This document shows, piece by piece, positions 1 to 34,381 of a DNA stretch of 64,000 bases. How positions within the stretch are numbered: the stretch's first letter is position 1; every line of letters starts with the position of its first letter. Both the position numbers and the translations under genes were made by a program. The DNA is taken from assembly GCA_011033025.1 (NCBI GenBank), contig WFMF01000009.1:992001-1056000 (forward strand). The letters are read 5' to 3'. The DNA comes from Beroe forskalii (taxonomy: Eukaryota; Ctenophora; Nuda; Beroida; Beroidae). The notes beneath the pieces were generated by a model. That model searched no databases. It was not told the origin of the DNA and saw only the letters and a program-made list of their open reading frames with translations.

Positions 1-3000
1 TCAGGAAATCTGTCACCTGCTTTTAAGCTGATTCGAGTCTCTGCAACGTTTACTGAGAACTAGCTCTACTGCGAAGGTATGGGAGTGTGATACTCCCATT
101 CTTCTTATTAACAGAACATATCACGGATATGTCATGGTACTGTATTCCACAATGATACTTGAGTTCAGAAGACTCCTAGACCCCGATGGGGACTGATCCC
201 CCTGACCCCCAAGAACCGGCGCTTGGCTACAGTTGATATACCTATAAAATAAACTATGCAGCGGCCGCCTAATCCTTCCCAAAAACTTTGGTCCTGACCA
301 CGCCCATGCTTGTAAGTGATCCGTAGTTCTACTATGAAAAAATATAAATTTAAAATATACCAAATATGCCAAAATATCAAGCCTTTAAATTGAACGGTCC
401 CACTCTTATTAATAACTGACATTATTCAAATGGCCCTTTGGACCAAATTTCTGAAACCAATCTGGTCAATAAAAGAATAAAGTAGCTGACTCTACCTAAG
501 TACCTCAAGGTATTATCCGCACGAACTAACATCTAAGATTGTAATTTCAGGGAGCTAGAGCAAAATCGCAATGCCAGCCGTACAGCAGCTCCTATATTTA
601 TAGCACTGACAAGTGAAGACTATACCTAACATCTTTTATGCTTTCATTTCCAGATAAGACGAATGGATTGGGTTAATTTTGACGCCTTGAGAAGGCAATG
701 AAACTGCGTACTCAGGTTTTGAGAGCATTGAATATCATATGATACTCAATATGTGTCATCTTCCTTTAAAATAAACGTGATGCTGGATGCATGGCAGTCT
801 GACAAGTTCTGTAGTTCCTTAGTTTTTTAGTTTTAAAAGTTTAAAGGCAGTAGGCCCGCCAGAACCTTCCTAGTCCCTTCCTTGACGTGATAGGTAACAT
901 GTGAGCAATCCTCAACTACCATTTGAAAAAACTTCTACCATTTGAAAAAACCTCCCTCCCTCTATTTGATTAGGTAACATGTCTACATTCCCTAACTATC
1001 AGAGTACCAGTACCACTTTTATACTAATGCACCGTACGCAGTGAGATAAACGATAGTTATGAATAGGCGCTGAAAGGATGTACCTATATTTCACAACAGT
1101 ATGCCTCCAAACTCTCCAGGCAATCATGCTATAGGGAATGGTGCAGCAGCAATCAGCAACTCATAATGACATCATCATATGAAATGATGACATCATCATG
1201 CAACCTTGCAAAACGTGATCATGTTATATTACGATAACTATTCTCCGGCAAGGGGTTTATAAAGCCGCGGCATTCCAAGGTAGCTAAAAATAGTGACTCT
1301 TCACTGAAAAATGTGTCCGGCTTCCAATCAATTAATCAAGCACACCACCACCTCCTGCTCAAACTATATTGTGAAGAAGCACACTAGTGGAACATGAAAG
1401 TGTAGTGAAATAAGGCAGGGGTAGGGGTGAAGGGTGTTATATCCCAGCTGACACCTTACAAATTGCCAGGAGGTCGTGGACGCCAGTAATTGTGTAACGT
1501 GGTTAGACGTGATAGTGGTACTTCTTTTTCACTTATATTGGAACTCTGTGTCGTTCAGAGCACATCTGTTTGAATGAAGTGTTAGGTGATGAGATTGCGA
1601 AACGTGTCTTCTCCAACGCTGTGAAGAGTACCCTACGATGAAAAAGACAACTGCCAGGGGTACTTTCAGCTTTTTAGCAATCAACTAATCAAAATTGATT
1701 GGAAGGTAGAGTTATTTCGAATGTTGATAATGCTTTAATGCAAGCAATAAGCATGCTATTATTAGTGATCTTTACAACGGTATGAAAATATGAACACATA
1801 TCACAGTATTAAAGCCGTCGAAGTCAAGCTGCCACAGCTACTGGTGTGAGATAATGCGAAATTAATCAGACATATCCATGTGACATGTCAGAGTCAATCT
1901 CTCAAGAAAAGGAAGAAAGCAACTGCATGAAATTGAAAATATAATACGCGCGCGAATAGAGTTCACGGTTAGCTGAGAATATTTCACACTTTCACACGAG
2001 TAGATGGCAAACCAGCGTATGTTTTGATCAACAATTCGATCTTGTTAGCTGAGTTGATAACGCAAACAGGAGTAACTCAGTAATTTTAGAGATGTTTCAC
2101 ACATTGCAAAACTGAGCCAGACATACCGGAAAATTAACCATCCATACTTGGCGGCATTAAACGATCGCGCAACTTAAGAAATTACTCAAAACTCATCGTT
2201 TTATTAATGAAAACCTGCATCATGACCAAACAAAAACAGATGCTATCACTGTTCTTGTGATGAGTGATCTCGACAGAAACATGCGAAAAGCACGTAATGA
2301 TGCTGCCTGTTGCATCTACTCATTTATTTCATGTAGAGCCACATTTAAATATTCTAGAGAACACCCCAGTGATATTTAACCACTATCTGATGTCAACCAT
2401 CCCTCGCAAAATGGGTAGATTACTGAAGCACGCAAATTTATAACATATTACTATTAATATTTAGCTGATATTCATGCTTATAATCATAATCATATAGATA
2501 CGCTCATATTTAATATCACACGCGCAGATAAACTTAATGGGGTGATCCGAAGAGTTTATCATACATAAAAACTTGACTCAGAGTTCAGACTGAGGAATTA
2601 AACTTTATACAACGTGGCATCGAATAGCAGCGTGTTTATGACCAATAACTCTATATCCCCCACTGTCTCGCCCTACAAACTGATGAATATAAAATTCATC
2701 AAATCTCTCTTATAATTTCGCGTTTTCTGTTTGTTTTTACGTCAAGCTCCCAGGCAACGGAAGGAAAAGGAGACGTGCACTTGCAAGATTTTTAAATCAC
2801 ATGCGTCATTTCTTACGGTGATATTTTAATAAAGTTTTAACTTTGAAAATATACACTTTATGTGCGCGTAACTACTATGTTGCTATGCACCTAGCAACAT
2901 ATAGTTGTAACTACACGTGGGCGCCCTATAAAAGGACAAAAAAGAAAAGAGGTTACAACGCCAAAAAACATACAAAGAATGAGATTTTATAAGAGAGACT

Positions 3001-4130
3001 ATCAGACCCGTTGGGCCTTCAAATACAGAGCTCACTCGGGGCTGCTACGCAGCACCTCGTTCGCAAATTTTAAGCACTCAATTATAATTGATTGAATACT
3101 TTTTACCAGTGGTGGATCTACAATGGGGTTGTGGCGGGGTTGCAACCCCGCAGCTTTTTCTGCAGTTGGGTTGTTATGGGGTTGTGGGGTTGTTGGTTTT
3201 AGAGTGGGGTTGTTGGGGTTGTGAGCAGCTGTTGTGATTAAATTGTACATGTTATCAAATTGACTTCAGAGGCAGATTCAGATACCAAAAACCTTGAAAA
3301 TTTCGACTGCAGCGGGCCGTTGTAATAAATCATGTAACTAAATTGGTTAGACACAGTCTTTGATATAAAATTTCTAAAATTTTCGCCTGCAGCGATCAGA
3401 AATATCAATAAGGATTATGATTCAAAGTAATATTGCCGTTCCTTTCATTTGTTTTTTTTTTGCAAGCGAAGCAAGCGGGCCAAAGGAGACTTTAAAAATG
3501 GCTTTTCTAACCAACAACCCAGCCCACCACATTTTTCAGTTGAATCCACCCGTGTTTCTCACCAGTATCGATTCATTGTGTTGCAGATCATTAAATTAGT
3601 ATACCAATTTCATGTTGAGCCATTATTTAAGATTCTATGAGGAAACAGATTCTTTTATAGCCACATTCACCGTTAATTATATGGTTATTACTTTATTACA
3701 TGTTAATTGCAAATTGAAACACATCGATCTAAGTCTTTACTAATAGTTTCATGTTTAATAATAACATGTTAATTGCAATTCATCATTTGAAATTATTGAT
3801 TTATTTTTATGTTATTTATTTATGATCACATAAATTTGCACCTCAGATAGTTACCGTTGCAGATTGTTTCCAAATTGACTATTTTTATTAACCGTCGCAT
3901 AGGTATTTGATTTTTTTACTTCGAATAAAAGTATAAGAGTATAAGCTGCTATTTCAGTTTCTCGTGTAATAATTTGGTGCTCCTATCTAAGAGTTCTGTT
4001 GTTATTACACTTTTAAAACTTTATAATGATAGCATGCGATTGCGTATCCCCAAATTTCGTAGCTCTAAAATTTCGAACCCCAGAATAATTGGGTAAATTC
4101 ATCTCTTAAAAGGTACACATATACAGAGAG
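1..4130. other. AT-rich non-coding stretch
   Basis: I see no convincing gene here. The open frames are short and lack family resemblance. A (G)GGTTGT-rich patch around 3124-3215 contains a perfect 16-bp palindrome at 3135-3150. The words just before it (from about 3107, CAGTGGTGGATCTA) resemble the end of an hAT-type element, but I found no matching right end. The 5' flank and promoter of the gene starting at 4131 must lie in the last few hundred bases, but I cannot mark a specific element. Confidence 0.6.
3124..3215. repeat. GGGTTGT-rich simple repeat with internal palindrome
   Basis: Short G-rich units of the type GGGGTTGT recur, with the palindrome CGGGGTTGCAACCCCG at 3135-3150. The open frame on the minus strand across this patch (Asn/Pro/Thr rich) is a by-product of the repeat. 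Confidence 0.6.
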
Positions 4131-6742
4131 ATGAGAAAGTTCAAGCGGCTTTTCCTGTGTATGACAGTGGGTGTGGCAGTTTACCTGATACTGTTGACTA
4201 TTCACGATTCCTGTATCTCTTTGCATGGAGGGAAGGAGCAACGCTCCATTAATTGCAGCCCTCATATCATTGGGTATGATAATAAGGAAGGTGAGGAGAA
4301 TGAACGGAATTTTGACAGATATCCTCCGGAATCTGGGATTCCGGATGTGATTTCTGACATGGGAAAGGGTATGGAAAGTAGGATAATTGCAGATCCAGTT
4401 AATTCTCATCGCATTGAAACAGTGAAAGGAACTTTTGCAGAAGACTGGATGAACCTGGAGAATCCAGTAGTGATGGAAGCGGTTACCATGGAAATGTCAG
4501 GGCGAGTCAACCATCTCAAGGAGCAATGTGCGAGCAGGGAACGGGAAGCTCATCCTCGACCTTATCAGTTCTTTATGGACATCCCCGAGCTCAACTTGAG
4601 ATGGTGCAAGGTATCGAAGGTCGGATCTACTAGCTGGGATACCTATCTGGCTCAGTTTGCCCCACTCTGTCGGGGGAGAAGGTGTGGAGTAAGTATTGCG
4701 TACCGGAGCAATGGGCGCTCCAGTTCCCGCCCAATTCAGGGCTTGAGGAGTGGAGAAGAGAGGGGATAAGACCGGATTTTGACATCGATACCTTCAACTT
4801 CCTCATTGTGCGACATCCCTTTGAGAGGGTTGTAAGTGCTTATCGGAGCAAGTTCGAGCACAACACGTTAAGTGGTCACAAATACTTCGAGTTATTCGGA
4901 AGGGAAGCGATGTTGAAGTATAGAAAGGTGGCAAAAACGTTGTCAAAAGATGAAAAATTGTCCCTCCTTCATCAAACGGAACAGTACATCAAAACAGGGA
5001 TGCGCACGCACCCAGATCCGAGCAACCCTTACCAAAACCCACCATGGCCAACTTTTGCTGAAGTCTCTGCTGCTATACTACAAGATGGCATTTATGAAAG
5101 GCACTGGTGGCCAATATCTGATCTTTGCTTGCCTTGCTCAATAAACTACTCAGCCATAGGTCACGTGTCAACGCTTGACAGAGACAGTGCGTATGTCATG
5201 AAACGCATAGGACTCAGTGGGGAAGGGTGGCCAAGTCAAACTAACGCATCTCCAGGAAAATCAACTGATGAAGTATGGAAGGAATACTTTAGTACTCTCC
5301 CCTGGGAGCTAAGGGTGAAGTACAGATTATACTATCAGTCTGACTGTCAACTCTTTAACTTTAACTGTGACTTATCAACTCTATCAACATCGGATATCAA
5401 CATGGAGGATTATGTCAAAAAGTTCTTTCCTGCCACACCATCATCTCAAGCTGGCCACTTCTTCATGGGGCCCAGAACCCCATATACCCTCCTGGCTGGC
5501 GACATATCCAGTCACACCTTCCCCTGTCAGCCCTCCGGCCTATTCAGCATGCACCGTCACGGACTACGCAACATGGGGGCCAACTACTTCATCCTGTCGT
5601 TCATTATCAACGTGGTGGAGCGGCTCAAGTCCAACCTCCGGAACCACCGAACATCCCCCCTGGTCGACATGGATTGGTTACTGAGCTTCAGCTACAATGG
5701 GCCGGACAACATGGATCTAGCGCCCGAGGGTTACCAGGAATTGATGGGCCAAGGCGAGCGTTTCAAAGCCGCGTTTCCGGAGCTTTTAGCTGACCCGGGC
5801 GAGGTACAGGTGACGGCGTGTCACTTTAACCGGTGCATTGGTTCGGGTCTGAGCTTCCTCCATGGGTTGTACGGGAATTCGTATAACACGGGGAACGCCA
5901 GCACGCTGCTGGGAGCCATGAAACGCATTCTGGGGAATGTCACGGAACAATGCCACGGCGAGTTGTCCGAGTCCGACAAACTCATGTGTGCGGTGCACCA
6001 ACCTATCCTATCCTGGAGAGAGGGAGCCAGACCGCTGAAAATGTTCGATATCAGCCGAGATAGTTTGCTTGAGTTCTACAAATATTGTCCGAAGTGCAAA
6101 ATTTACGTTAACTACTTAAATGAGGACCGGCATTACGTGCCAGATAAGTTTACCAGGCACCCAAAGTTTGTGAGGCTCCTCAACAACGTCAGTAGACGGA
6201 TCGGAATGCAGCTCGATTACGAAGACCTGATGGTGATGCATATTTTGTGCTCGTTGGAGGCGACTTTCCCTCGAATAGTCCCGGGAGCCAAGTTTTGCAG
6301 TTTGTTGAGGGGTGACGAAAAGGATGTTCTGGGATACTTCATGGACATGGTGCACTTTCACAGCAAATCAACTCCCGCCAGAATTAAGTCTGGGTGTGTT
6401 TTGATCAGGGAAGCCATAAGGACTTTGAGAGGAGGGGAGGCTTCCTTTTACTTCACACACTGCCAAGCACAGATGCCTTTCTACGGAACCATTGGCTTGG
6501 TCCAGAACCCACCGTTAAAATGGAAGGATGACCTCAATGACCGGGATTACTTCGGAGATATGGTGGGGTACGGAGGAGCCCTCACTATGGTGGCTATGGA
6601 ACAGTGCTCGGGGCAGGAGGGGACTGTGGTGCAGACCTTCCTCCATGAGAAGCCCATTGAAATCCCGGGGTGTGGGGATCCCTGTACGTTGGAAAGGCTC
6701 GAGGAGATGTTCCCAGCAAGCGAGTGTAATTACAGTGCGTGA
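4131..6742 (+). CDS. Carbohydrate sulfotransferase fused to MINPP1-like histidine phosphatase (one frame break)
   Basis: About 870 residues if one base is restored in the G run at 4672-4676. The frame opened by ATG 4131 runs into it, and the frame from 4673 carries on to TGA 6740-6742. The N-terminus is a type II signal anchor (residues about 7-26). The sulfotransferase domain follows: 5'-phosphosulfate loop CKVSKVGSTSW (about 159-169), 3'-phosphate motif RHPFERVVSAYR (about 228-239), a CLPC segment, and a YYQSDCQLFNF end typical of the CHST8-14 type. After a linker comes a clade-2 histidine-phosphatase domain like MINPP1: RHGLRN (about 476), a downstream HFNRCIGSG segment matching the family's HRC(M)DS region, and HCQ (about 777-779) where MINPP1 has HAE. 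Nucleophile His, the arginines and the second His remain; the acid Glu is Gln. Both domains share one unbroken frame after 4673, so the fusion is seen directly. Expected location is the Golgi or ER lumen; the phosphatase half may be weak or inactive (inference). Confidence 0.85.
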
Positions 6743-6795
6743 TATGGTAAGATGTTCCCAGCGAGCGAGTGTAATTACAGTGCGTGATATGGTAA
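6706..6795 (+). repeat. 45-bp tandem duplication over the stop codon of the fusion gene
   Basis: The copy at 6706-6750 holds the last codons and stop of the fusion gene. The copy at 6751-6795 repeats it with a single visible base difference. The unit is 15 codons, so a second, non-translated copy of the C-terminus and stop sits in the 3' untranslated region. Confidence 0.9.
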
Positions 6796-7430: not shown

Positions 7431-7735
7431 GACATCTCATCTCGCGACACTTCATCTCATGACACTTCATCTATTGCACTTTAACAATTATAATTGAGGA
7501 GATGACATCTCGCAAAACAGGACATCTAATATCTCGAAAATTCAGCGCACCTACGACATTTCATCTGAAAGGGTGCGACGTTTCAATTCAGGGGTGCGAC
7601 ATTTCATCTCAGACTAAGACACTTCATCTCGAGGGGTACGACATTTCATCTCAAAGGGTACGACACTTCATCTCAGACTGCGACACTTCATCTCTGGCGG
7701 GCACGACACTTCATCTATGGGTACGACACTTCATC
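7431..7735. repeat. Degenerate tandem array of GACACTTCATCTC units
   Basis: Units of roughly 15-24 bases (ACGACACTTCATCTCA and variants) repeat irregularly and stop exactly where the hydrophobic signal-peptide codons of the next gene begin. The last unit, TACGACACTTCATCG, runs into that coding sequence with no visible splice acceptor between them. Confidence 0.8.
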
Positions 7736-8450
7736 GTGTTGTCTGCTGCTGGGAGCCCTTCTCGGACTCTCTGCAGGGTATGACTGCTACCTCAAGTACG
7801 AGAGCTACTGGATGAACTGGGGGATGAAGGATGGAGCAGGAAACTACCCATTAATCCGACCCTCTACAATCGGGGATAAGGAGAGTGTGGAGGACCATGC
7901 CATAGGGCTGTGTAACAAGGATACTGGTTGCCATGGTGTCCGATGCTACAAACTACCGGCTTACAAGTACGAACTACGATGCAGACTCGCAACTGCCTGG
8001 TTTGGGAATAAGAAGCAACCAGCTGATAGAAATCTGGATAAATACATCAACAAGGTGGCACGAAACACAAAGAACCCAGGCATCTGGAGTTACATTAAGA
8101 AACAGACTTGTTCGGAAGACAAATGCTACCAAAAAGTTGAAGGATGGTTCTTCAAATGGAGACTGAAGGTCGGGAAAACAGCATACAAATACCCGGTTTA
8201 TTATCCCATACACAAGAACGGCAGGTATGTGAGTCCCGAGCATTACACAAAGAAGTTGTGTTCTCACGACCCTGACTGTCTAGGAGTCCGGTGTGAAAGG
8301 TACGATGATGAAAATGTGCGGTGTTACATTGCAGGCGGGTGGGAGAGTGCTCTCAATCCAACAGACGAAGGTTTTGAGGACTACTTGGCAAGGGTGGCGA
8401 GTTACAAGGGAGCTAACTATTGGAGCTACCCTAAGAACTCTGCCTGTTAG
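7734..8450 (+). CDS. Secreted two-repeat cysteine-rich protein, 5' end unresolved
   Basis: The reading frame ends at TAG 8448-8450. Its first methionine (7812) lies inside the mature domain. Upstream, the same frame encodes a signal-peptide-like run, CCLLLGALLGLSAG, ending in YDC near 7785. No in-frame ATG precedes that run; the frame stays open back through the tandem array to a stop at 7566. The true start is therefore on an unseen exon or was lost in the array. The mature part contains two related units of about 95 residues, each with an opening Cys-Tyr and Trp, a central C-x(4-5)-C(L/H)GVRC segment, and an ending (W)SY-x(5)-C. The even cysteine count suggests an extracellular disulfide-bonded protein. 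I do not recognise the family and assign no function. Confidence 0.6.
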   Translation, partial: SCCLLLGALLGLSAGYDCYLKYESYWMNWGMKDGAGNYPLIRPSTIGDKESVEDHAIGLCNKDTGCHGVRCYKLPAYKYELRCRLATAWFGNKKQPADRNLDKYINKVARNTKNPGIWSYIKKQTCSEDKCYQKVEGWFFKWRLKVGKTAYKYPVYYPIHKNGRYVSPEHYTKKLCSHDPDCLGVRCERYDDENVRCYIAGGWESALNPTDEGFEDYLARVASYKGANYWSYPKNSAC

Positions 8451-15600: not shown

Positions 15601-18600
15601 ACTCAAGAATTGTATTGCAGTCATTGCGGTCAATGACCGTAGTCAGTTATTTACAAAATGTCAGTCATTCTCGTATGGTTTACACCGTTCCAGATCCCCT
15701 CTACCTACTTATATAGCCGATCACCCAACGTCAAACCTTAATTACTTCTATAAAACAAATCAAACCTTGGAGAGTTGGTGATGGCGTTTCTCAGGACAGA
15801 AGCCACAGTGACGGCAGCCCCCACGGCCCCCACGTACCCTCCAACCATCTGGGCAGTGCTGGTCTTCAAACTAGCGTTACGGTTGCAGTAGTTAAACCCT
15901 GCAAAACAAATCGTTGATCCTAAAATCCTAACGACTAAATTACTAGAATACTAATAGACTTGACAGTAATTGTCCATCATGAAAGCCATTGGGATATCAC
16001 GAGAATCGAACCCGAATCTTCTGATCGCGAGCTTGTTACCCTTACACCATTGATTACCTGCGTTAATGCTCTGATTGACGACCTGGTAGAAGGAGCCCAG
16101 GAGCGCTGAGTTGCCGGGCATCACCATGAGAGCACACACCGGCACACTGGCCAGTATCATCCCCGGCATAGAGAAGACGGCTGGTACTACGTGCCCAGTG
16201 TCGGGATGGATCCGGGCGTACACTGCGTACTGGGCCCTCCAGAGATCCCGAACTGAAGGGATACTGTGAAAAATGAGATTTTGGGAATTGATATCCAAGG
16301 TACACTCTATGAAATGCATCCTTGCATATCGGTTGTATTGAAATCGGAAGATGTGGGCTATCAAGGTTAACTTGGCAACAAACAAGGAAAGAAATGAACA
16401 GAAGTAGCAAATTATATTGATTATAAATCCTCAATAAGTCACTAAGAAGTAAGTGAGCCTCAAGAGTCAAGACATACACTGACACTGGTGTCAAGATGTA
16501 TACGTTGACACTGATGTCAAGACATACGTTGACACTGATGTCAAGGCATACGCTGACATTGGTGTCAAGTCACATACTGACACTGGTGTCAAGGCATACG
16601 CTGACACTGGTGTCAAGGCATGCGCTGACACTGGTGCCAAGGCATACGTTGACACTGGTGCCAAGGCATACGTTGACACTGATGTCAAGGCATACGCTGA
16701 CATTGGTGTCAAGTCACATACTGACACTGGTGTCAAGGCATACGCTGACACTGGTGTCAAGGCATGCGCTGACACTGGTGCCAAGGCATACGTTGACACT
16801 GGTGCCAAGGCATACGTTGACACTGGTGCCAAGGCATATGCTGACACTGATGTCAAGGCCTGCGCTGACACTGGTGTCAACCCATACGCTGACACTGGTG
16901 TCAAGGCAGAAGCTGACACTGATGTCAAAGAATACGCTGATACTGGTGTCAAGGCATACGCTGACACTGGTGTCAAGGCATACGCTGACGCTGGTGTCAA
17001 GGCATACGCTGACGCTGGTGTCTAAGCATACGCTGACACCGATGTCAAGGCATACGCTGACACTGATGTCAAGGCATACGTTGACACGGGTGTCAAGGCC
17101 AGCGCTGACATTGGTGTCGAGGCATGCACTCACACTGGTGTCAAGGCCTATGCTGACACCGATGTCAAGGTCTACGCTGACACTGATGTCAAGGCATACG
17201 CTGACACTGATGTCAAGGCATATGCTGACACTGATGTCAAGGTATACGCTGACACTGGTGTCAAGGCATACGCTGACATTGGTGTCAAGGCATACGCTGA
17301 CACTGGTGTCAAGGCATACGCTGACGCTGGTGTCAAGGCATACGCTGACGCTGGTGTCTAAGCATACGCTGACACCGATGTCAAGGCATACGCTGACACT
17401 GATGTCAAGGCATACGTTGACACGGGTGTCAAGGCCAGCGCTGACATTGGTGTCGAGGCATGCACTCACACTGGTGTCAAGGCCTATGCTGACACCGATG
17501 TCAAGGTCTACGCTGACACTGATGTCAAGGCATACGCTGACACTGATGTCAAGGCATATGCTGACACTGATGTCAAGGCATACGCTGACACTGGTGTCAA
17601 GGCATACGCTGACATTGGTGTCAAGGCATACGCTGACACTGGTGTCAAGACCTACGCTGACACTGATGTCAAGACATGCGCTGACAGTTGACACTGATGT
17701 CAACGCAAGAGTTGAAACTGGTGTCAAGTCATACGTTGACACTGGTGTCAGGGCATACGTTGACAAAGTGACAATGGTGTCAAGTTATACGCTGACACTG
17801 GTGTCAAGGCATACGCTGACACTGATGTCAAGGCAAACGCTGACACTGATGTCAAAGAATACGCTGATACTGGTGTCAAGGCATAAGCTGACACTGGTGT
17901 CAAGGCATACGCTGACGCTGGTGTCAAGGCATACGCTGACGCTGGTGTCTAAGCATACGCTGACACCGATGTCAAGGCATACGCTGACACTGATGTCAAG
18001 GCATACGTTGACACGGGTGTCAAGGTCTGCGCTGACACTGGTGTCGAGGCATGCACTCACACTGGTGTCAAGGCCTATGCTGACACCGATGTCAAGGTCT
18101 ACGCTGATACTGATGTCAAGGCATACGCTGACACTGATGTCAAGGCATATGCTGACACTGATGTCAAGGCATAGTGCATACGCGGACACTGGTATCAAGA
18201 CCTACGCTGACACTGATGTCAAGACATGCGCTGACAGTTGACACTGATGTCAACGCAAGAGTTGAAACTGGTGTCAAGTCATACGCTGACACTGGTGTCA
18301 GGGCATACGTTGACAAAGTGACAATGGTGTCAAGTTATACGCTGACACTGCTGTCAAGGCATACGCTGACACTGATGTCAAGGCAAACGCTGACACTGAT
18401 GTCAACCATATTTTCTAATAAAATTTTCAATTTCAATTTCAAAGCAAGAAAGTACCCGGGTGTTTTTGAGCTTGTCCCTCTTTATAATGTTCGTTTAGAG
18501 CAAGTTTACACTCATCCAGCTGTGAGGAACTGTACAGAATGTACTTAGGATGCACCTGAAGATAAAACATTTTCCAGTAATTGGTACAAGGGTTGTCGAT

Positions 18601-21957: not shown

Positions 21958-24689
21958 CTATGCCAATTCATTGACCAAACAACAATTAGCAAGATGAATC
22001 TTTCTGCCATGAATATCTTGCAAATTCCGCCAGTTATTTAGAATTTTGCAGTCACCAACACCAGTTGTCATATTTCTAAGTCGTTTTAGAATTCCACTCT
22101 CCAAATTCACTTCTGAAATTAGATCATGATTGACAAAGTGCTGTCCCTCAGAACAACCAAGATGTGTCTTCATATATGAAAAGGTTTGAAAAGTTTTATT
22201 TAGTGTACATTTGTGGTGTAAAAATATCTTCAATTCAATTCATCAAATTTCATGGTATTTGTCTTGCCAAATGGCTATGAACATTATTGTCAAATTAAGC
22301 CAATAAAATTAAGATCCTAGTTTGCAAGAAAAATGTCCATAATAAATTGATTAAATAAATAGGAATTACATACCATTCTTGAACAAAATCCAGGTAACAC
22401 ACTCATTGTAATCAGGGGTTGTTAATGAACCAGAGTAAGTGAAGTAAGATCTATCTTCAGGCAATCCAGATTCAAGTTTCAAGCTCTCCTTGATCTTCAC
22501 TTCATTTCCTTTAATCTGGGGTTAAACTTAATATTGGAGTTTAGTACTTTTAATTAACAAATGCAGTAGTAAAATCTTGAGGTAAGAAGCTCAGTCAATT
22601 ATCTTAATATGTTCAGTTTCTACCTTAGCAACTAATTAAGGGGGGAGTGTCACTGTCCCAATTGTCCCTGTCCCAATTTACTTTTTTTGAGTTTGGGACT
22701 GGTTTTTGGGACAACTGGGACATTTGGGACAAACAAAAAGTTGAAAAAATCAGTCATTTTTCATTTTTTACATTGATAAAAGTTTTTCTTCCATTGACAT
22801 ATATATATATTCATACTACTATACTAAATACATATTTTGGTTGTGTTTGTTTGCAGTGGTTAAGTGTTCCCACGTCCCTAGCCAAAAAAACACAACTATT
22901 TGAAACTCAGTTGTCTCTGTCACTTTTGTCCCAATTGTCCCAAATGTCCCATTTGTCCCAGTCTGCATTCACTTTTTTGAGTCCCATTTGTTCCATTTTC
23001 TCTGTCCCATTTGTCGCAATTGTCCCATTTGTCCCAAATGTCCCAATTGTCCCAGTCCACATTCACTTTTTTGAGTCCCATTTGTTCCATTTTACTGTCC
23101 CATTTGTCCCAATTGTCCCAAATGTCCCAATTGTCCCTGTCCCAATCCACAAGCAGACCCAAGAAATACATTTATACATGTAACTGCCATAGAATGTAGT
23201 AGTCACTGAAAATTTGAATACATTGGAATCTATGGTAAGTTTTCATCCTACATGTAATATTAACATAAGGTCATTCACAAAGCTAAAATCATACCCAATG
23301 ATTACCAATTTTATGTTTTAATTATAACTCTTTAAGTATTTTTCTACTCTTTTCATTCAAAGTAACTTCACTAAGCCAAAAATCATAACATAAATATACT
23401 ATTCTGCTAAGTAGTGAAATTTAATGATGTTCAAGTTTTATGAATATCAAATTTGAGTTTCAGAAAAAGTAATTATTTGCTTGCAATTACTTGACAAATA
23501 CTTGGTTTTAATGAATGATCCCACCAGAACATGTGAACAATGTTATTTCATATATACCTGTGGAACCTCCTCAAATAGCTCAGGCATCACATTATCAAAT
23601 GACATCTCAGATTCCTTCAATAGAACACCCAAAACAGCTAATCCATCAGGCTGTTGAAGAGCGTCTTCCATATTTCTGAATTTTTCATTCTTGAATACAT
23701 AATGCAACTCAGCACTTGACATTTTTCCATCAATAGCATGTTCAGAACCTGAAATTACATAGGGATTGTTCACATGTTCACATATTACATAACCAATTTT
23801 TGGCCATTTTCAACCCCCTGCCCCATGTAATCAAGTACAATCAAAGCCCAACCTCCCCCCCCCCCTCTTGACCCTTCTTGAGTAGACAATGATGATGTGG
23901 ATAGTGCAGATATATCAGGCAGATTATATTGGCACATCAACTCAATTAATTGCACAGATATGCCATGAAAACAGTGTATTCCAAAGGGTGACAGTGCACT
24001 AACAGAACTTGAAGATTTCAATAGTACAACACCTTATAATTCCAATGGAAGACTATTCCAAAGTTTAGGACCACTCTTCTCAAAAGAGTGTCCACCATAA
24101 TGTGAGATAACTCAAGGTTCATGGAGATTATGTTTCAATTTTGGAAAATTGAAGAATATTGCAGCAAAAATTGTGTTGAAAATTGGATATTTTGATTAGA
24201 TATTTGGATAATTTAGTCAATTGCCAAAACTCCCTCCCCATAATTAATTAAATAATTTAAACAAAAACCCCTCCCCCAACATGATTATGCAATATATGTG
24301 TGCAATCCCACATGGGAAAAGATCAATGAAAAAATTACTAGTTCTATTAAATCACCTAACTCAGGCTTGTCTCCCCAATGAAAATGAAATTGTTGCAGAA
24401 AATATTTTGAGCCCTTAAGAGGTCCACCTGTCATCATACCATCAATGAAACCAAATGTATCAACATGAAGGCAATATCCTGTATTCCTTGATAACACACT
24501 TGATTTGGTTTTGAAGTTTATAGAGAGTGGAGTATCAAAGTCATTATCAATAGCATTTTTGATGTTTATAGGTGATTGATGTGCCACACCACTTTGCTGA
24601 GAAAGGAGCCTGTTTTGGACACAGACAGGACCTAAAGGAACTGTTGATACCTTCTGGCAGCTTTTCAAGAATCTTGCAATAAGAGCCAT
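21958..24689 (-). CDS. Alpha carbonic anhydrase, mitochondrial type, four exons
   Basis: Catalyses hydration of CO2 to bicarbonate. Exons on the minus strand: 24356-24689, 23558-23748, 22374-22515, 21958-22112; they total 822 bases (273 residues) and all junctions keep phase. Visible landmarks: QSPINI, GGPL, the zinc ligands in QQFHFHWG and [25 protein letters not shown], the Thr199 region [14 protein letters not shown], and the C-terminal [13 protein letters not shown]. The first 35 or so residues ([14 protein letters not shown] and on) have Arg, Lys, Ser and no acid, fitting a mitochondrial targeting peptide. The residue at the proton-shuttle position 64 is Tyr (NTGYCLHVD), as in vertebrate mitochondrial CA V (NTGY), not His. 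Intron 2 holds a TGTCCC-rich minisatellite. The active site looks intact. Confidence 0.95.
22648..23150. repeat. TGTCCC(AATTGTCCC) minisatellite in carbonic anhydrase intron 2
   Basis: Short units TGTCCCAATTGTCCC and TGTCCCATTTG dominate, densest at 22910-23148, with a roughly 130-bp higher-order repeat that includes CATTCACTTTTTTGAGTCCC. Frames on either strand give Ser-Gln-Leu or Asp-Asn-Trp runs that are artefacts of the repeat. Confidence 0.85.
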
Positions 24690-24843
24690 AGTAATTTTAC
24701 CTGATGGAATATAAATTCAAATGGAATATAAATTCAAAGGAATATAACTTCAGAAAAAACACATTTTGTGTTTTATGTGATTGGTCATTGATGCAGTGAA
24801 AAAATTTTTAGTGAAGGAATCGGACCCACACATTATACTAATA

Positions 24844-29961: not shown

Positions 29962-32938
29962 TCAAATCATAGAAACATATGCTAAGGAAGCTAGGACCAT
30001 TATCCCACATAACGTCACACATGCAATTTTCTTTTCTTCACGAGTCCACTTTCTCTGCTGAGGAGCCAGGGGCGTGGTCTCCCTCACTTCATCATATTCA
30101 TAGAGACAGAGTGCTTGGTTCTCATCCAGATGAGTCCTTCCATTACTCAACTCAATCTCTCGGTCTAACGAGAGGGAGGAAATCTTTAATGCTGCTGCAA
30201 TAAGATTGAGGCCAGAAAATGTCACAAATGCAAGTAAAATGCCAGTTGGTCCTAAGTCAGTAAGGAAAACAAAGATTGCAACAAGAGGAGTTGCAAGCAG
30301 GAAGCAAATCACAGCTAGAGACACAGCGATAAAGTGTTGCTTGCCAAATGAAATGAGTATTCCTCTACATAAGACTGTTTGAAGGTGATCAAGGGGCATT
30401 TGAATAAGGTACACCCACATACACCCAGTAAAGAGGTTAATGACCATGGTATCTGATGTGAAGAGGCGAGCAAGGGGATACCTCAATAAGAATAAAAGAG
30501 AAGAAATGATTATAGAGAAGACCAATGCATTTATCGATGCTAGCATCATGAAGAGTTGTACTTCTGACTTATTTTGTTGTTGCATTGCATTTCCTGGGAA
30601 GAGACGACGCATTAAAATCTAACGAGAAATCTAGTGAGGTTTCCATCATGTATGAAGCCTGATTATTAGATATGCGGTAAGTAACTACATGAATTCGCGA
30701 ATGTGAACATTCAATATTTTTGGAGTTTATTAGGGTATACACGTATACAGACATAACCCCTGAACCCCATTCTACCTTAGAACTAAAATTGCATGTTTTG
30801 GACTTTTTTAACGAGCACAAGCACCACAACAGTCCATAACCTGCAATTTCTGATCTGAGATAGATTTGTCCTAGAAATGGCTTTAATAAGAATATTCAGG
30901 GTTACCAGGGAACTTTGGAAAACCGTAAATAAACCAATTGGCCTGTTGCCAATAAAAGCCTACCTATGAGAATGGTAGTTGCCGTAGAAATTCCTGTCGG
31001 GATAGTGTAGAGACAAATATTGAATTGAAAAACCATGACTATGGTTGCCAGGACAGATGTACCATTGAACTGGCTTAGGAATGTAGCAGTCTCAAACATT
31101 CCAAGCTCAGTAAACATGTTGGCAGCACCTGAGGAGAATAAATTCATTAATCCCACAGAGACGATGTTTGCATTAACGTCGTTTCGTAAGACTTTTTCCT
31201 GGGAGCAGCGGCCCCAAGACCCCTATGGATCCCCAATTTATATCATAAGTTCATGCTAAACGTCGTGAATTCATGCTCATGACCTCATAGACAGCGTGAA
31301 TTCACGCTTGTGAACAAGTTGTTTAAATGTTTGAATTCACAGAAAACCGTTGACTCATCAGGGATGGGAACAGTACTGCTCCCATCCCCATGATGCAGCT
31401 ACAAAAATATGTAGTACACAAAATTGAAATTCGTGGAGTAATGGCTTGGGCTAATGCCTTTTAAGCTCCCATGGTGGCTAAATTAAAATAGCCCCGGACG
31501 TTTCAGTTATTAGGCATCCATTACTCATAAGCCATATGTCATATAAGCCTCAATGGGGACTAATCACTGGAAATTAGCCCCCATAAAGCCCCTCACCTAG
31601 CCCCCATGTGGGATAATCATTGGGGGCTAAATTCTTCCATCTTCCTATTCAAGTTACATTTCACCAATTTGGGCATTTCATCTCGATAATTGATTAATAC
31701 AGTATTCCATCAAAATAATGATATACAGATTGTTTTCTATAACTGCAGTGTACCTACTGATCATCCAGTCAAAAGCAACACGTGGAAAGGGTAATGAAAA
31801 GGATTGGTAGAAAGAGCCAAGTTAAGAAATAAGAACCAAGAGATATGCAGTTATCTTATTGTATTACTATTTGTTGTTACCCAAAAGGTAAATGCTGAGA
31901 TATGATAAATGAGAAACAGTTTTTCAAAGAAAAAATTCTCTATAATCATGTGTGGCCCCAAGGCCCTGTTAACAGGACCTTGGGGCCACACTTGACTGAT
32001 AGCTCTCTTGACTGGCCCTTTACTTCTTACCCCTTTGACAAGTTGCTTAATGAATGGTGAGCAGACGTGCCAGTTACAGCACCTGACAAGCCAAGTTTGA
32101 TGAAATCGTTCCAGCCACAGCACACTTCTGCGGAGTAACCTCCCCAATCTAGCATTTCCCGTTTAGTGTAACAGTATAACAATATGATGACCAGAGTAAG
32201 AACCCTAGTAAGAAGAGCTGCCATTGCCAATCCAGGAAGACCAAGATCACACCAAAATACAAGGAGTAAGTTCCAGGCCAAGTGAAGTATGATCATCAGA
32301 ACAGATATCACATAAACCTCAATGATGTATTTTTGCACGATGAGATATTTGGAGAGAATGGCAATGAAGAAGTCAAAGAGAGGTACCAGACACACAAGTC
32401 TCACATACATCACAGTTATTTGTAGGTTGTTCATCTCAGGAAGAACATTCACTGTTGCGCTTTCACCACCATGTGGGTGATATGATGTGTTGTCAGCAAC
32501 TGAGGCATTTCCCACTTCTGCTGCAAAACTGTTGGGTTCAAGAGGCAGGAGCATGACGATATGTACACTGTTCAGGTACACCCCCAGTATGAAGATGTAA
32601 ACCACAAATCCTTGCAAAAGGATCTTCAGGGTAACAGTGCCAAGGTTTCCAGATCTTCTGTCGGAAGAGTATACTTGAGGACCATATGTGTCCATGACTG
32701 AAGTGAATCCCCAAAGAACAGACCATAGGAGTACGTTGTAAATCGTGTTACCTAACCCAACTCCAGCTAGCATGGCCTTACTAATGTGCCCAGCAAATAC
32801 CAGAGTAATGAAAGCAAGTCCTACTTGAGTAGTTGCCAGTAACCAAGTTGGTATACCCAGAATCATAAATTCTTTCTGCTTGTGAACCATTTTAATACTC
32901 ATCAGTTTACGGAGAGTTTCCATTGTAGTAATATACAA
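29962..32938 (-). CDS. MATE-family multidrug and toxin extrusion transporter, SLC47-like, three exons
   Basis: Exons on the minus strand: 32083-32938, 30964-31128, 29962-30593; 1653 bases, 550 residues, all junctions in phase. SLC47 proteins are plasma-membrane H+/organic-cation antiporters of 13 membrane segments. Seen here: repeated hydrophobic segments from the N-terminus (MILGIPTWLLATTQ), GLGNTIYN, MDTYGPQ in the place of the family's DTLxSQ, the ELGMFE segment matching the two conserved glutamates in TM7 of human MATE1, the ILIGNAM turn across the exon 2-3 junction (human RVGNAL), a polar tail, and a last membrane segment typical of animal MATEs. An extra loop of about 40 residues with NAS and NTS sequons follows TM3. 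The first of two nearby methionines (32936-32938) is used. The paralogue is not decided. Confidence 0.95.
31951..31990. repeat. 40-bp near-perfect palindrome in MATE intron 1
   Basis: The left half TGTGGCCCCAAGGCCCTGTT is followed directly by its reverse complement with one mismatch and no spacer, centred on GTTAAC. It could extrude as a cruciform or fold as an RNA hairpin in the pre-mRNA. Confidence 0.95.
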
Positions 32939-34381
32939 CTTCCTCCTTTCTTTAACCTGCCGTGAGAGTCGGAGAAAAGGGACTGCTTAATCGAAAACCA
33001 ATTAATCAAATAAACAATTTATTCGATTGTGGGGAATCATATAACTTCATATTTATGAAGTTTATAAAAAGATGAAGGTTTATTAAGTGATGAAGTTATG
33101 TATTGCTAATGGAGTAATGGAATCCCAACTTTGCATTCACTTAGTAAAAACAGGACAGTTGTTAATAGCTTTGCCATAACCAATACTTCGCCCTTAATGT
33201 TGATCATAACACAGACTTAGTGAACCTGCTATAGCCAAGTAGGTCCCTTTGAGTAAATGCATAAATAATATATGATTGTAGTGATTGTTTGTTTGGTAAA
33301 TTAGCAAGTACTATGTCGTGAAAGTAGGACATTATACCAAGCTATTGCATAATTGAGAGTGTCTGACATGTTCCTACTGTACAAATAGTGTAGTACTATC
33401 CATGTATGAGCATTAGGATCATACTTAGGATCTAGATATTGTTGGTGGAGGTGGGACCCTCTTAACACTTTGAAATCAACTTTCGGGTATGAACTTTTCT
33501 GATATGATCATTGAAAACTTAGAAATTTTGGCAAACTGGAAGAACACAGATATTTAAAAAGTGGAAAAAGAAGTGGAAACACTATTCTTAACCACAACCA
33601 TAACACCTAGATCCATAAACACTAAACAGAATACCATGGCTCCCCAACTTTTACATGTGTATGGAGAATTGAAAGGGGCATTTGGCCGTTCATCAAATGC
33701 GATGATGGATAGGTTTGAATAGACATAGCCCGACAAAACTCGTCTTATATTTTGACTGGTTATAGCAGATTACTACTGATCATAGAAAATGGGCTAGTGG
33801 GCTACAACAAGAAAAGCATGCTGCCAGGATCGGATACTTATACTATCCCACCAACATTACGTGCCACAACTTTAGAACGGATTAAATTAGAAAGTAGAAA
33901 GCGGTAAAAAAGTAAACCTTCACCATTGGCCGGGTAATGTACTACAGTAGTCCGCTTCTCATTAGTTTGACAGTACGTCATCCAGGGATAATGTTGCCGC
34001 ATCAAAATCAGGTTATGGAGCATGGATGGATTAAAGACGAATTTTATGACGATTTAGGACGGAAGTTAAAATGACAGGGTAGCTTGTGTTTATTATGAAT
34101 AAGCTACCCAGCCATTTACAATTTCTGTCCTTACCCTAAATCGGCCAAGGAAGGAGAAGATACTGTGGAAAGAAAATACGATATCTTGGGCAGATTTCGG
34201 AGGTGTCGTAACAATTAAGGGGTACTGGTGGTAAAAATTACCACCAGTAAGAATTAAGAATTAAAACAAGTTTGATTATTGAAATGACTTGACAGGTTTG
34301 TTTCAATGTTATTTGTATATTGGTGTCATCGATGGGCATAGCACTATGATTTCACGGATCGGGTCGTTGAATAAGAGTCGC

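Follow-up and report, generated by a model that had tools for sequence, protein, structure and literature searches.

What does a single open frame that joins a carbohydrate sulfotransferase to a histidine phosphatase encode, and can such a protein both add sulfate and act on phosphate? The window analysed here is a 64,000-nucleotide stretch of Beroe forskalii DNA (C1024:992001-1056000 of a 216-Mb genome). Its first-pass annotation proposed one frame extending from the 3'-phosphate motif RHPFERVVSAYR through the phosphatase domain, and the main open reading frame (ORF; 4682-6742), encoding 686 aa, is indeed open throughout, carrying Sulfotransfer_2 and His_Phos_2 without interruption and with both Pfam matches above their curated cut-offs. 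The Sulfotransfer_2 match (residues 27-228, E 2.8e-25) scores 90.3 bits with a cut-off of 22, and the corresponding matches in the paralogs L009, L012 and L013 score 81.8-109.1 bits. The His_Phos_2 match (residues 322-651, E 4.9e-6) barely exceeds its cut-off, at 26.6 bits versus 23.6; the same domain scores 61.9, 54.2 and 50.7 bits in L012, L013 and L017, and 23.4 bits, slightly under the cut-off, in L009.

The extension of this frame over the whole of 4131-6742 did not hold. The hydrophobic anchor and the SKVGSTSW motif lie in a separate upstream ORF (4131-4769), which two extra bases within 4672-4676 put out of frame with the main ORF, so that the window copy has both PAPS-type motifs in different frames. 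In L009, L012 and L013, unlike the window copy, the anchor and 5'-PAPS motif are in frame with the rest. The offset in the window copy would be a recent lesion or else an error in the sequence. Rfam returned no match in the window.

Table 1. Coordinates of the fused gene and its elements within the window
Feature	Position	Strand	Basis or remark
Upstream ORF: N-terminal tail, anchor and 5'-PAPS-type motif	4131..4769	+	out of frame with main ORF in window copy
Hydrophobic anchor	about 4149-4202	+	placed by eye
SKVGSTSW, 5'-PAPS-type motif	4614-4637	+	inside upstream ORF
G run, two bases more than L009, L010 and L011	4672..4676	+	alignment with three closest paralogs
Main ORF, 686 aa plus stop, both domains	4682..6742	+	ORF list, Pfam
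Sulfotransfer_2 match, residues 27-228	4760..5365	+	Pfam
3'-phosphate motif RHPFERVVSAYR	4811-4846	+	motif scan
Linker, about 30 residues; alike in other readable copies	5366..5455	+	limits by eye
MINPP-like histidine phosphatase domain (Pfam match proper 5645-6634)	5456..6739	+	Pfam, alignment
RHGLR, the RHGxR motif with nucleophile His	5555..5569	+	motif scan
NRCI, third phosphate-binding Arg	5828..5839	+	alignment, motif scan
H-C-Q replacing the MINPP HAE motif; Gln codon CAA at 6464-6466	6458..6466	+	alignment, motif scan
45-base tandem duplication spanning the stop codon and 3' end of main ORF	6705..6795	+	repeat search

The fused gene family

A search of the genome with the 686-aa protein yielded 23 matches, with both halves present at ten loci: the window (C1024), C183, C35, C425, C780, C374, C122, C446, C336 and a decayed copy on C798, whose longest match contains 13 stops. 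The nine readable copies comprise the window, three copies with 84-90% identity to it (C183, C35 and C425), four with 55-58% identity (C780, C374, C122 and C446), and C336, whose two halves are 71% and 64% identical to the window. C183 and C35 share 95.9% identity across 3 kb, have flanks alike and may be two alleles, in which case the count of distinct genes is one lower. Three copies (L009/C183, 868 aa; L012/C780, 816 aa; L013/C374, 839 aa) run intact from the anchor to the last codon and share the layout anchor, sulfotransferase, linker, phosphatase. One or more frame changes, which may be sequence errors or young lesions, occur in six of the nine readable copies (window, C35, C425, C122, C446 and C336); two compensating changes in C425 leave its RHGxR stretch out of the main frame. 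At the DNA level, the window resembles L011 across the coding part (4153-6748) and a 44-base copy of its end; its resemblance to L009 takes in the coding part and several 3' pieces as far as 7389. Carriage by a mobile element was considered, and no transposon feature was noticed in these comparisons. In the locus L018, about 2600-3400, lies an odd homopolymer-rich stretch that may be poor assembly sequence.

These sequences give good support to a membrane-anchored fusion of sulfotransferase and phosphatase. An assembly join, a possibility raised in the first-pass annotation, is contradicted because both halves occur at nine other loci; we ruled it out, and the genomic sequence argues strongly for a real fusion. 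That two separate genes, or joined pieces, have been read as one is scarcely credible: it could draw on the C336 frame change, which falls between the two domains, but eight other readable contigs carry the same domain order and a similar linker, seven of them free of stops between the domains.

The fused proteins resemble the carbohydrate sulfotransferases of Sulfotransfer_2 (PF03567) in their N-terminal anchor and in domain coverage, with L012 matching model positions 6-252 of 252, and differ from them in bearing a C-terminal phosphatase domain. The genome as a whole contains at least 72 Sulfotransfer_2 matches, fused copies and fragments included, and the family is large. PXYLP1 has a histidine phosphatase fold and is a separate protein, unlike the fused family. 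It is described as a xylose 2-phosphate phosphatase acting in the assembly of sulfated glycosaminoglycans (GAGs) in the accessible part of PMC9346353. The first-pass annotation knew of no protein with the fused architecture, and in keeping with this, the accessible parts of the open-access literature, including that on ctenophore sulfotransferases, revealed no fusion of a sulfotransferase with MINPP or another histidine phosphatase. Candidate genes of the ctenophore tentacle include a sulfotransferase and a phosphatase, and the accessible sections of that study state no fusion (PMC6278862); the fusion may already be present, unremarked, in ctenophore gene sets. Literature on ctenophore glycosaminoglycans and on pseudophosphatases offered no usable lead. 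Scans with two short patterns each, all drawn from the sulfotransferase half and so blind to relatives of the phosphatase half alone, gave 38 viral and 21 prokaryotic pattern matches, with no relative confirmed among either.

Active sites and selective constraint

The 5'-PAPS motif with its Lys and the 3'-phosphate motif with its Arg and Ser have known roles in sulfotransferases. The Lys is present in seven of the nine fused copies, replaced by Asn in C374 and by Asp in C122, and the Arg and Ser are present in eight, with C374 deviating. Both motifs, a further likeness to the carbohydrate sulfotransferases, are retained in 7/9 copies, and the sulfotransferase half is predicted to be active in most of them. 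C374 (L013 3986-6535) has both PAPS motifs altered together with the phosphatase Gln, yet is open over 839 aa. Both catalytic functions seem to be gone from this member, a possible double pseudoenzyme; because its frame stays open despite these apparent losses, its sequence hints at a non-catalytic role.

The phosphatase domain, claimed at the outset to be a full MINPP-like domain, is full in length, with a second motif, H-C-Q, from which the MINPP-type Glu is absent. RHGxR, the third Arg (NRC) and the second-motif His are encoded in all ten readable copies (the nine fused copies and L017), and in these same ten, L017 being probably fusion-derived, the position of the MINPP proton-donor Glu is occupied by Gln. 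The motif reads HCQ in the window, C183, C35, C425 and C336 (THCQA in the C336 alignment, missed by the motif pattern), HNQ in C780 and C374, HSQ in C122 and C227, and HTQ in C446, where a frame change lies just downstream. The position of the phytase Asp, next to the His, holds C, N, S or T in the readable copies, with no Asp. The Glu is kept in all four unfused MINPP-like copies read (HTET in both C624 genes and HEET at C1024 and C77), of which the last two look almost the same and are therefore not fully independent. Of the 14 His_Phos_2 matches in the genome, the motif comparison leaves aside three short ones on C469 and one on C725, and C243 carries an acid-phosphatase-like gene with HD. 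The fused domain thus shares with MINPP its His_Phos_2 match, RHGxR, third Arg and His, and its closest unfused relatives in the genome have HxE; it differs in having Gln for the HAE Glu, in lacking a signal peptide of its own and in its position behind a sulfotransferase.

In BtMinpp, the HAE Glu is named as the candidate proton donor in the part of PMC3969271 available. The equivalent Glu-to-Gln change in BlMINPP, E401Q, with RHGxR likewise kept, yielded an inactive protein that crystallised as a phosphohistidine derivative, according to the accessible text of PMC7762957; that enzyme differs from the fused proteins in being a single-domain bacterial protein with an engineered change. Comparison of the window ORF with solved structures gave one meaningless match (E 0.89), and a profile of five phosphatase halves matched the acid phosphatase 1qfx (E 7.9e-7) and, weakly, phytases. 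Single-sequence structure prediction of the window phosphatase half reached a mean pLDDT of 33.8, too low to be usable. NCBIfam gave no match for L009 or L012.

Within the window clade of four copies, all six pairs give an NG86 dN/dS of 0.13-0.18 in the phosphatase half, counted in the C425 pairs only downstream of the out-of-frame stretch. For the sulfotransferase half it is 0.14-0.19 in five of six pairs, with 0.42 for C183/C35, where the C35 row begins out of frame. With YN00 the ratios are 0.13-0.21 in the phosphatase half and 0.21-0.26 in the sulfotransferase half, where the C183/C35 pair has 0.40. Eight of 12 coding indel sites in the four-copy alignment preserve the frame, and both halves look constrained in this clade. 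Synonymous distances to and among copies outside the clade mostly exceed 1 or cannot be computed; the family is therefore old, and dN/dS outside the clade is unreliable.

Whether the window copy itself is a pseudogene within a functional family is a separate matter, which we regard as possible but doubtful. The two-base offset favours it. It is opposed by the 686 stop-free codons downstream of the offset, by the low NG86 dN/dS of the window versus L009-L011 (0.14-0.18), and by the frequency of frame changes among copies and the homopolymer-rich stretches of L018, from which it follows that the offset may be a sequence error.

Proposed function and alternatives

Architecture, family, constraint on both halves and the residue replacement were computed directly. 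On balance, we lean toward a Golgi-type sulfotransferase in which a disabled MINPP-like domain serves as a binding module for a phosphorylated or sulfated ligand. Intact members would most likely be type II (Golgi-type) membrane proteins with both domains lumenal. The sulfotransferase half would add sulfate from PAPS. In the phosphatase half, RHGxR, the third Arg and the second-motif His are predicted to hold an ester of phosphate or sulfate without turnover, as the proton-donor Glu is replaced by Gln. Given this predicted holding without turnover, the phosphatase half most likely grips a sulfotransferase acceptor that carries phosphate or sulfate, or senses a ligand, and the two halves would cooperate. 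Candidate ligands would be inositol polyphosphates, phosphorylated linker sugars, already sulfated glycans and PAP. Binding of a sulfated ligand, InsS6, in the MINPP cleft is reported in the accessible parts of PMC7762957 and PMC3969271, the former describing it in BlMINPP as a substrate analogue.

The bifunctional enzyme envisaged in the first-pass annotation survives in part: the anchored fusion is well supported by the intact C183, C780 and C374 copies, and phosphate removal is disfavoured by the Gln that takes the place of the MINPP-type Glu in each of the ten readable copies. Between the two activities it had offered, binding or removing phosphate, binding fits this replacement better. 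A phosphatase half that removes phosphate, from the 3' position of PAP or from a glycan, with the help of another acid or a good leaving group, is accordingly an unlikely reading. It would be consistent with the constraint on this half and with the nucleophile His, RHGxR and third Arg kept in 10/10 copies. In ScVip1, moreover, a Glu-to-Ala change at the phytase proton-donor position increased activity, as the available part of PMC11836120 reports, so an acid at this position is not always needed and its loss need not abolish turnover. On the other side stand the invariant Gln, a phytase position that is C, N, S or T and never Asp, and the inactivity of BlMINPP E401Q. It is also improbable that the domain is a structural remnant, a ligand-free fold serving stability or oligomerisation, with some members double pseudoenzymes. 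C374, which lacks the Lys, other residues of both PAPS motifs and the phosphatase Glu and is still open, fits this picture, but the phosphate-binding residues persist in all ten copies even though the window shares only about 48-50% identity with L012, L013 or L017 in the phosphatase half.

Two readings take the Glu-to-Gln change further. A His that takes up phosphate and keeps it, as a one-shot sensor or switch for the sulfotransferase, is very unlikely: the same change in BlMINPP gave the phosphohistidine crystal, and the nucleophile His and RHGxR are kept, but that crystal came from a laboratory mutant of a distant bacterial enzyme (PMC7762957, in its accessible part). A naturally fixed trap phosphatase that gates sulfation by phosphate, either through phosphate taken from a lumenal ligand and held on the His or by clamping a polyphosphorylated or polysulfated acceptor, is quite unlikely. 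Were this trap or clamp to operate, phosphorylation would be tied directly to sulfation within one Golgi protein, in an expanded family. To our knowledge, glycan phosphorylation and sulfation are otherwise handled by separate enzymes. The preferred reading, a binding module within a Golgi-type sulfotransferase, suggests that a phosphate-binding domain was recruited for steering sulfation, offers a natural counterpart to the laboratory trap mutant, and bears on the diversification of glycan sulfation in a deep animal lineage, the ctenophores.

Origin of the fusion and other features of the genome

In a tree of the phosphatase half with 13 rows, rooted at the midpoint and with C1024 on a long branch, L017/C227 falls into a single clade with the nine fused copies (100/100), separate from the C624 pair and from the unfused C1024 gene. 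The sulfotransferase-half tree (20 rows, including 11 of 63 unfused matches) groups the nine fused halves at 88/94, under the starred level. The nearest unfused sulfotransferases in the genome are distant, with 24-35% identity over parts. L019, one of the unfused C624 genes, begins with what resembles a signal peptide, MPHLLLLLLFLFPASSP, and carries GT-AG introns immediately ahead of LHRHGTRN and behind SWIL, with splice sites placed by eye; the fused genes are unbroken at these points, and their coding part, as far as read, lies in a single exon. The fusion probably goes back to a processed MINPP-like coding sequence, devoid of its signal peptide, that became attached to the 3' end of an intronless sulfotransferase gene. 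A route other than retroposition is possible, because other genes in this genome are intronless too (L024; e.g. the C1024 MINPP-like gene). L017/C227 (L017 3900-5285) has a 462-aa frame comprising an anchor, a fusion-like linker and the phosphatase, with no sulfotransferase, and is best read from its sequence as a deletion derivative of a fused gene; the tree gives it no firm position.

The 13,339-base contig C1134, with 17% G+C, encodes a very divergent COX1 with four in-frame TGA codons, and ARAGORN found no tRNA in the 10 kb of it examined. Fast mitochondrial evolution and absence of mitochondrial tRNAs are given as ctenophore characters in the accessible part of PMC6991124, and this contig accords with a ctenophore host. 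Elsewhere in the window, a 293-aa ORF (7569-8450) starts in a tandem repeat and has a cysteine-containing C-terminal part that seems repeated twice; Pfam gave nothing above cut-off for 7812-8447. About 79 copies of a 24-base unit occupy 16466-18405, with long open frames on both strands. Three further frames resemble what we take to be a carbonic anhydrase (24285-24716), a MATE-type transporter (29962-32986) and a cytochrome P450 (60858-63519).
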